Source of the DNA: Phenylobacterium deserti
GTDB taxonomy: Bacteria; Pseudomonadota; Alphaproteobacteria; Caulobacterales; Caulobacteraceae
Direction of reading: 5' to 3'
Assembly: GCA_945883235.1 (NCBI GenBank)
Contig: CAMCXF010000005.1
Coordinates: forward strand, 1-64,000
Length of the DNA: 64,000 bases
In this document: piece by piece, positions 1,911-63,337 of the stretch
Layout of the letters: the number at the start of each line of letters is the position of its first letter
Position numbering within the stretch: position 1 is the stretch's first letter
The notes under the pieces: generated by a model
What the model was told of the DNA's origin: nothing
Databases searched by the model: none
The model's input: only the letters and a program-made list of their open reading frames with translations
Program-made: the position numbers and the translations under genes

Positions 1911-1960
1911 CCCCTCATCCGTCAGCTGCGCTCACGCCTTCTCCCGCTGCGGGAGAAGGC
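1911..1960. repeat. Intergenic palindromic repeat (DUF559-associated family)
   Basis: It contains CCCCTCATCCG, then a small inner hairpin region, then CCTTCTCCC-GCTGC-GGGAGAAGG. The first and second blocks match the repeats flanking the DUF559 gene at 62.8-63.3 kb, so this looks like a dispersed copy of that family. Confidence 0.6.
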
Positions 1961-62771: not shown

Positions 62772-62864
62772 GTAATTCCAGATTGGCTCCTGCGACGGGA
62801 GGTCATGGCCCTTCGCCCCTTGTGGGAGAAGGTGGGCCGCGCGAGCGGCTCGGATGAGGGGTCG
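62772..62864. repeat. Left inverted repeat flanking the DUF559 gene
   Basis: Begins GTAATTCCAGATTGGC and, nearer the gene, CCCTTCGCCCCTTGTGGG and GGATGAGGGGTCG around an inner hairpin GCCGC-gcga-GCGGC. The right repeat (63247-63337) is its reverse complement, with 42 of 42 core flank bases identical by eye and only the inner hairpin different. Confidence 0.8.
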
Positions 62865-62895
62865 AAAGCCGGTTCAGGATAAGTCACGCTGCAAT

Positions 62896-63239
62896 ATGGC
62901 TCGCCTCACCACCGTTCCGCAGGCTCGCGCTCTGCGCCGCAATGCGCCGGAGACCGAACGCCTGCTGTGGAAGCTGCTGCGTGATCGCAAGCTGGAAGGT
63001 TCCGGCGACAGGTCCCGCTCGGGCCTTACGTTCTGGACTTCGTCTGTATGCGCCATCGTTTGGTGATCGAGGCGGACGGCCCGTTTCACGATCCTGAACG
63101 GGATGCTGTGCGAGACGCCTGGCTGGCGGCAAAGGGTTTTCGGGTCCTGCGTTTCCCGAACACCGAGATCCAGCTCAAGGACTGGCAGGTCATCGGGCGA
63201 ATTCTCGAAGTCGTCGGAACGCCGCCACTCCAGCCATAG
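62896..63239 (+). pseudogene. Frameshifted DUF559 (Vsr-like) endonuclease
   Basis: DUF559 proteins have a PD-(D/E)xK/Vsr-like nuclease fold. The N-terminal half (MARLTTVPQARALRRNAPETERLLWKLL-type) is in one frame and the C-terminal half (MRHRLVIEADGPFH, FRVLRFPNTEIQLKDW) in another. Between them, an alternative reading RQVPLGPYVLDFVC joins up, indicating a small deletion near 63000. It lies inside near-perfect inverted repeats of about 90 bp. Confidence 0.8.
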
Positions 63240-63246
63240 GGCGGCA

Positions 63247-63337
63247 CGACCCCTCATCCGACCGCCTTCGGCGGCCACCTTCTCCCACAAGGGGCGAAGG
63301 GGCATAGGGTCAAGTTCCGCCGCCAATCCGGAATGAC
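63247..63337. repeat. Right inverted repeat flanking the DUF559 gene
   Basis: Begins CGACCCCTCATCCGA, has the inner hairpin CCGCC-gaa-GGCGG, then CCACCTTCTCCCACAAGG and GGCGAAGGG and ends CCAATCCGGAATGAC. A further partial copy (TCCCACAAAAGGCGAAGGG) follows at about 63345-63363. Confidence 0.8.

Follow-up and report, generated by a model that had tools for sequence, protein, structure and literature searches.

BoxC/PIT repeats, noted in E. coli in the 1990s and present in hundreds of genomes, are markers of unstable sites and adopt a triplex that is stable in vitro (PMC4666352). BoxC/PIT/TM elements are intergenic, occur in many copies and often lie in inverted pairs of two types, those of E. 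coli combining type A with type B; their structure, a hairpin followed by a mirror purine tail, was established as a triplex in vitro for TM_ECO by CD and NMR (PMC4666352, Holder et al. 2015). No transposase or integrase remnants were reported near the motif in that work, where DUF559 is unmentioned, and the repeats had so far lacked an associated gene. As for DUF559 itself, one member of the family, VsrA of C. crescentus, is required for the DNA-damage response in cells without cytosine methyltransferase (PMC12907096), and therefore DUF559 family members act on DNA in vivo.

Here we analyze a stretch of 64,000 nucleotides (the window) from contig C5 of the draft genome of Phenylobacterium deserti (3.82 Mb, 109 contigs), in which a DUF559 gene lies between two palindromic repeats. 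The original prediction was that the nuclease may mobilise or process these palindromes, in analogy to RAYT/REP pairs. The comparison is apt, since in both cases a nuclease gene is framed by palindromes, the repeat type follows the nuclease clade, and there are dispersed, gene-less facing doublets with a spacer of fixed length and variable sequence. It stays an analogy, however, as neither the fold of the nuclease nor the structure of the repeat is related to that of REP/REPIN-RAYT (TnpA-REP): the DUF559 protein has a Vsr-like fold and not that of an HUH/Y1 transposase, its repeats bear a mirror purine tail and no GTAG-type foot, and its units are present in several copies, moving with their ends. 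By analogy, the DUF559 unit would work like REP-RAYT, yet it falls outside that family, nuclease and repeat both being unrelated.

The window locus and its relatives in P. deserti

The features of the locus are collected in Table 1. Direct reading bore out the description of two inverted repeats of ~90 bp around the gene: a 15-nt block, CGACCCCTCATCCGA, and a 27-nt block, CCACCTTCTCCCACAAGGGGCGAAGGG, are identical in both, the outer ends GTAATTCCAGATTGGC and GCCAATCCGGAATGAC match as reverse complements at 14 of 16 positions, and the inner hairpins are unlike in sequence, each pairing perfectly. The inverted-repeat score across the gene was 57.5, versus a maximum of 22 in 1,548 intervals of equal size from the same window. 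Each repeat continues past its inner hairpin with a purine tail, GGATGAGGG, which mirrors the purine arm GGGAGAAGG except that T replaces one A; such mirroring of a hairpin's purine arm is the signature of an intrastrand triplex. A related palindrome elsewhere in the window, also proposed originally, is real but solitary, without a partner. The gene is indeed a frameshifted, dead copy, with 7 nt fewer than the intact copy at G000:C1:162686-162988, which encodes 116 aa and whose unit is otherwise 88% identical to that of the window. A synteny comparison found the flanks of the window site little conserved among relatives and too diverged to reveal an empty site there. Between the window unit (62810-63300) and the related unit with the intact gene (L001), the two inner-hairpin types have traded places: the type found 5' of the gene in one unit lies 3' of it in the other, as would result from an exchange of ends or an inversion of the middle part.

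Table 1. Position of the elements of the DUF559 locus and of the lone palindrome in the window
Feature	Position	Strand	Remarks
Lone palindrome, same family as window pair: tail, inner hairpin, first hairpin	1912..1959	-	
Outer inverted-repeat block, left, GTAATTCCAGATTGGC	62772..62787	.	14/16 vs 63322-63337, read directly; inverted repeat continues outward
Left palindrome, first hairpin: pyrimidine arm CCTTCGCCC, loop CTTGT, purine arm GGGAGAAGG	62810..62832	+	
Left palindrome, inner (linker) hairpin GCCGC-GCGA-GCGGC	62836..62849	+	Read directly
Left palindrome, mirror purine tail GGATGAGGG	62852..62860	+	Gene-facing; proposed third strand
DUF559 (PF04480) endonuclease pseudogene	62896..63239	+	Two frames; 7-nt deletion near 62990-63000 vs intact contig C1 copy
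Right palindrome, mirror purine tail	63251..63259	-	Gene-facing
Right palindrome, inner hairpin CCGCC-TTC-GGCGG	63262..63274	-	Read directly
Right palindrome, first hairpin: purine arm, loop, pyrimidine arm	63278..63300	-	Purine arm 63278-63286 (minus strand), pyrimidine arm 63292-63300
Outer inverted-repeat block, right, GCCAATCCGGAATGAC	63322..63337	.	Read directly

The protein of the intact copy matches Pfam DUF559 (PF04480) with 126.5 bits, against a cut-off of 20.6, and the window copy matches it in two frames. Its predicted fold (pLDDT 85) resembles NGO0050 (3HRL), the homing endonuclease I-Bth0305I (3R3P) and Vsr (1VSR); residues E21, D50, E61, D63, D72 and R75 are invariant among 27 DUF559 sequences, and H67 nearly so. 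According to this model, DUF559 is predicted to be a nuclease of PD-(D/E)XK / Vsr-like fold with a conserved acidic site. Both NGO0050 and E. coli YcjD are members of this family (44% identity between 3HRL and the model; E 4e-38). The likeness to I-Bth0305I and Vsr is one of fold only: DUF559 units have flanking repeats of their own and no known intron or homing site, and the loci studied have no methyltransferase linkage. No known transposase domain was matched in the scanned proteins, which hit only DUF559 and, weakly, the nuclease family PF18741. A role as phage-defence nuclease was considered and discarded, as five proteins gave no convincing PADLOC match, the one marginal hit (E 1e-3) having no supporting stretch.

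A profile search of the contigs located eight DUF559 genes and a ninth remnant in the genome, all of them in or beside inverted palindromic repeats of several sequence families; the relatives of these DUF559 genes fall in Caulobacteraceae. The palindrome family of the window has 26 exact copies, nearly all in facing pairs ~91 nt apart with a non-conserved spacer of ~54 nt, and only two pairs enclose DUF559. The spacers of the short doublets showed no DUF559 remnants and no likeness to gene-adjacent sequence. No Y1/RAYT gene (PF01797) was found in the genome by profile search, and the reading of a RAYT acting there in trans was set aside. Several elements have an outer repeat, ATTCACACATCGTCG, beyond the palindromes. 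At L013, L018, L020, L030, L032 and L001 the doublets are embedded in a larger repeat, itself dispersed, whose ends resemble GGCATTCACACATCGTCG, and some of them have a further GTCATCCCGG-type repeat outside, giving a mosaic of nested repeats.

Repeat architecture and association with DUF559 genes

Across lineages the motif has the same order, i.e. pyrimidine arm, loop, purine arm, linker and purine tail, where the linker is either 2-5 nt long or a second hairpin, the covarying inner hairpin of the window being of this second kind. Arm and tail form mirror pairs, such as GGGAGAAGG with GGATGAGGG, GGGAGAGGG with GGGTGAGGG or GGGAGAGGG, GGGGGAAGG with GGATGGGGG, and GGGGGAGGG with GGGTGGGGG or GGGAGGGGG. 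In a purine-motif triplex the permitted triads are G on G-C, A on A-T and T on A-T. Two variable arm positions agree with their mirror partners in 93 of 94 and 94 of 94 units, while positions in direct register do not, and the tail base facing the constant arm A is T (47) or A (45) and rarely C (2), with a search pattern that did not admit G at this place. Arm and tail thus covary as a triplex requires. The proposal that the structure is under selection is supported by this covariation more strongly than by the inner hairpin on which it had been based. The G-runs of some types could also form a G-quadruplex, a reading that was set aside because it does not predict the A/G covariation at the inner positions. 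Five loci gave no RNA family match in Rfam.

A stricter rule, that the two ends are always unlike in type, did not hold: pairs with similar linkers numbered 0 of 30 in three genomes, versus ~4.6 expected, and a fourth genome showed the opposite by the measure used. The data suggest a tendency of doublet ends to differ in linker, the tests per genome being weak. Pairs with unlike linkers, which have different inner hairpins, can be seen in G000, G014 and G063.

The window repeats share with BoxC/PIT/TM the two arms, one of pyrimidines and one of purines, and a mirror purine tail that would fit a purine-motif triplex. They differ in their arms (GGGAGAAGG/GGATGAGGG) and in having a hairpin instead of the 3-nt second loop, and the exact TM_ECO consensus with that loop was not matched by the window copies; because of the different arms and the hairpin linker they are a subfamily and not TM_ECO itself. 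On sequence grounds we place them in the BoxC/PIT/TM intrastrand-triplex superfamily, with the triplex of the hairpin-linker subfamily as a prediction. In line with the original statement that no description of the pairing of gene and repeat was known, the open-access literature searched gave no report of it; the repeat itself is a variant of a known one (PMC4666352). Motif copy 9 of E. coli (1351239-1351204) in that article adjoins ycjD (1351407-1351760), a DUF559 gene. Both ycjD and the gonococcal NGO0050 have triplex-type repeats nearby, differing from the window locus in that a clear motif is present on one side only of the former and that the motifs of the latter are in direct orientation. 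At the NGO0050-type locus of N. gonorrhoeae (L147) the adjoining motifs are, accordingly, direct and not inverted, and are part of a longer direct repeat.

Loci for a survey were picked by protein similarity only, so that the selection was blind to repeats: GTDB genomes spread over many phyla gave 80, and a set of 142 Alphaproteobacteria gave more. Of these, 108 had usable flanks, at least one pair of them looking like the same locus and a few sharing a genome. Inverted repeats with a score of at least 22 linked both flanks at 68% of the DUF559 loci versus 1.9% of 3,470 intervals from the same loci. When hairpins with a mirror purine tail were scanned for within 250 bp of the gene, the motif was found at 97.2% of the 108 DUF559 genes versus 2.4% of 2,844 control intervals. 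The tail faced the gene in the left motif at 80.6% of the 108 loci and in the right motif at 63.9%, and tail-in motifs on both flanks were present at 53.7% of them versus 0 of 2844 control intervals. In a gammaproteobacterial replication the motif accompanied 95.7% of 23 loci with full flanks versus 6.0% of controls; for 26 more loci, taken from seven genomes and partly fragments, the values were 69% and 8%. The palindromes are thus specific to DUF559 genes (97% vs 2.4%, and on repetition 96% vs 6%) and almost absent beside others, and the pairing spans phyla; the outcome named originally as refuting, no enrichment or equal abundance by unrelated genes, clearly did not arise. DUF559 genes of Synechocystis and Azospirillum plasmids and of one P. 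aeruginosa plasmid had no flanking motif pairs. The plasmid collection was also tried as a source of strain-level empty sites and abandoned, as DUF559 of Azospirillum lacks flanking repeats and is positionally conserved across related plasmids. At L151 (S. meliloti Ak57), L101 (R. tubonense) and L166 (Sinorhizobium sp. M103), the DUF559 gene is enclosed not by two single palindromes but by a pair of complete doublets in inverted orientation, which at L151 reach a 106-nt score over 114 nt.

Gene and motif also co-occur at the level of genomes. Among 142 alphaproteobacterial genomes a strong DUF559 match was present in 27 of the 30 with at least three motif copies versus 10 of the 112 others (Fisher 1e-17; 4e-12 with genomes of at least 2.5 Mb only), and the corresponding numbers in Gammaproteobacteria were 18/26 versus 13/117 (p = 4e-9), all of these statistics ignoring relatedness. 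On the DUF559 tree, which is short and weakly resolved, arm type changed 18 times, versus 29 with shuffled labels (minimum 26) and 24.5 with shuffles within host classes (minimum 20). Five genomes (G042, G278, G232, G230 and G267) had 14-94 motifs each and no DUF559 detectable by two different queries; the PF04480 genome search was silent on the E. coli control although K-12 has ycjD, so its negatives are not absolute. Among the doublets listed, 51 of 59 in DUF559-bearing genomes were tail-in, which is the polarity of the full unit, and 31 of 35 in DUF559-less genomes, mainly two of them, were tail-out. G042 and G278 (loci L233-L262) carry 44 and 94 triplex motifs, in doublets almost all tail-out and regularly spaced. 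These tail-out doublets are perhaps a different element with another cognate gene, and their opposite polarity would offer such an explanation for the motif-rich genomes without DUF559.

Units, deletion derivatives and empty sites

Two pairs of units in the P. deserti genome are 91% and 88% identical over ~500 bp and have unrelated flanks, their homology stopping within a few bases of the outer palindrome edges. Another pair, in G119, is 71% identical over 502 bp, with homology up to the palindrome edges. The search for empty sites proposed originally was productive at L008: several other species of the genus have nothing inserted at this site, and one more has a doublet without the gene, intergenic divergence being too high to define the exact junction. 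Broken DUF559 genes are many, among them those of the window, L008 and L009 and the remnants in G183.

G183, a spirochaete MAG, contains full units that share 91% identity over 500 bp. It also has copies shortened by internal deletion, in which both palindromes and a stub of DUF559 remain, and two such copies, located at unrelated sites, are 99% identical along 303 bp. Because the gene-less copies hold DUF559 remnants, they must have arisen from full units and not the other way round. An outer CTYGAGTTAGGCG repeat bounds the unit, and outside of this repeat three of four complete copies have, by eye, A/T-rich flanking direct repeats of 6-7 bp (TTAATTA, TTATTA, TAATAA) that are apparent target duplications. 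None were evident for the units of P. deserti. Loci L190, L191, L196, L197 and L198 of G183 are the cleanest set for a transposition study. The G183 set is the best evidence of transposition, and an unlinked transposase in that genome remains a candidate because of the outer CTYGAGTTAGGCG repeat. Taken across genomes, the comparisons clearly indicate that gene and palindromes moved together and that non-autonomous derivatives exist; gene-less tail-in pairs share genomes with full units and in G183 are plainly internally deleted full units. The window holds a small mobile unit of this kind in decayed form, with one DUF559 gene (~116 aa) between two facing palindromes predicted to form triplexes.

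This organization recalls an insertion sequence with MITE derivatives: a short unit with one gene, terminal inverted repeats and internally deleted copies, repeated with its ends at unrelated sites and, in one genome (G183), with 6-7-bp direct repeats that may be target duplications. Unlike an insertion sequence, it has no known transposase domain, it shows no target duplications in the genome of the window, and it is the putatively triplex-forming hairpin ends that are common to unrelated hosts, while other end sequences vary.

Proposed role of DUF559 and alternative explanations

Since gene and repeats moved together and their pairing recurs in many phyla, DUF559 is a strong candidate for the agent that spreads the repeats, and it is probably a transposase-like or RAYT-like partner that acts on the motif. 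The palindromes would be the working ends of the element. A single-stranded end, e.g. during replication, would fold so that the tail clasps the purine arm of the hairpin as a third strand, and the DUF559 protein would recognise the folded end and cut at the edge of the fold. The pair of ends, with anything between them, could then be copied or moved to another intergenic site, DUF559 acting in cis for the full unit and in trans for the short doublets, much as has been proposed for RAYT and REPINs. On this view the BoxC/PIT/TM repeats would be ends of such elements, resident in the genome and non-autonomous.

The two main alternatives assign the mobility elsewhere. DUF559 could be a homing-type parasite that invades existing motif doublets by cutting empty ones, followed by break-repair copying, the repeats spreading by other means; I-Bth0305I is among the closest solved folds after NGO0050, and both gene-less doublets of the same polarity and motif-rich genomes without DUF559 exist. 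We consider this unlikely, as the doublet spacers of P. deserti are unlike the sequences beside the gene, the remnants in the gene-less copies of G183 trace these to full units, and units have moved with their own ends to unrelated sites. The outer repeats past the palindromes, CTYGAGTTAGGCG in G183 with its direct repeats outside and ATTCACACATCGTCG in several P. deserti elements, would fit gene and repeats being passengers of other transposases or of repeat recombination, with a separate role for the nuclease. This is rather improbable: it is the triplex motif, not the outer repeat, that is common across phyla, the motif type follows the nuclease clade, and homology ends at the palindromes in most copies compared.

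The prospects are poorest, and very slight, for a host function, with DUF559 as a repair enzyme of the Vsr type and the hairpins as terminators or regulators of its gene. Gene-adjacent hairpins are often terminators, and VsrA of Caulobacter has a functional link with a solitary cytosine methyltransferase (PMC12907096); however, the motif is almost absent beside other genes, PIT elements had neither promoter nor terminator activity in the earlier work as cited in PMC4666352, and a conserved repair gene would not be found broken as often as DUF559 is.

Returning to an element mobilised by its own nuclease, we tentatively propose, as a reading with a real but somewhat lesser chance than not of being correct, that these units constitute an unrecognised class of bacterial transposable element, found from Pseudomonadota to Chloroflexota and Spirochaetota, whose sole gene is a Vsr-like endonuclease, whose ends are single strands folded into hairpins that a third strand locks as an intrastrand triplex, and whose BoxC/PIT/TM derivatives are mobilised in trans. 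BoxC/PIT-type repeats are among the most widespread orphan repeats in bacteria, and no gene had earlier been tied to their spread (PMC4666352). A nuclease family tied to them makes that spread directly testable, with E. coli ycjD as the obvious model. If the proposal is true, the widespread DUF559 family would gain a biological role, and a non-B DNA structure would be serving as a transposon end.
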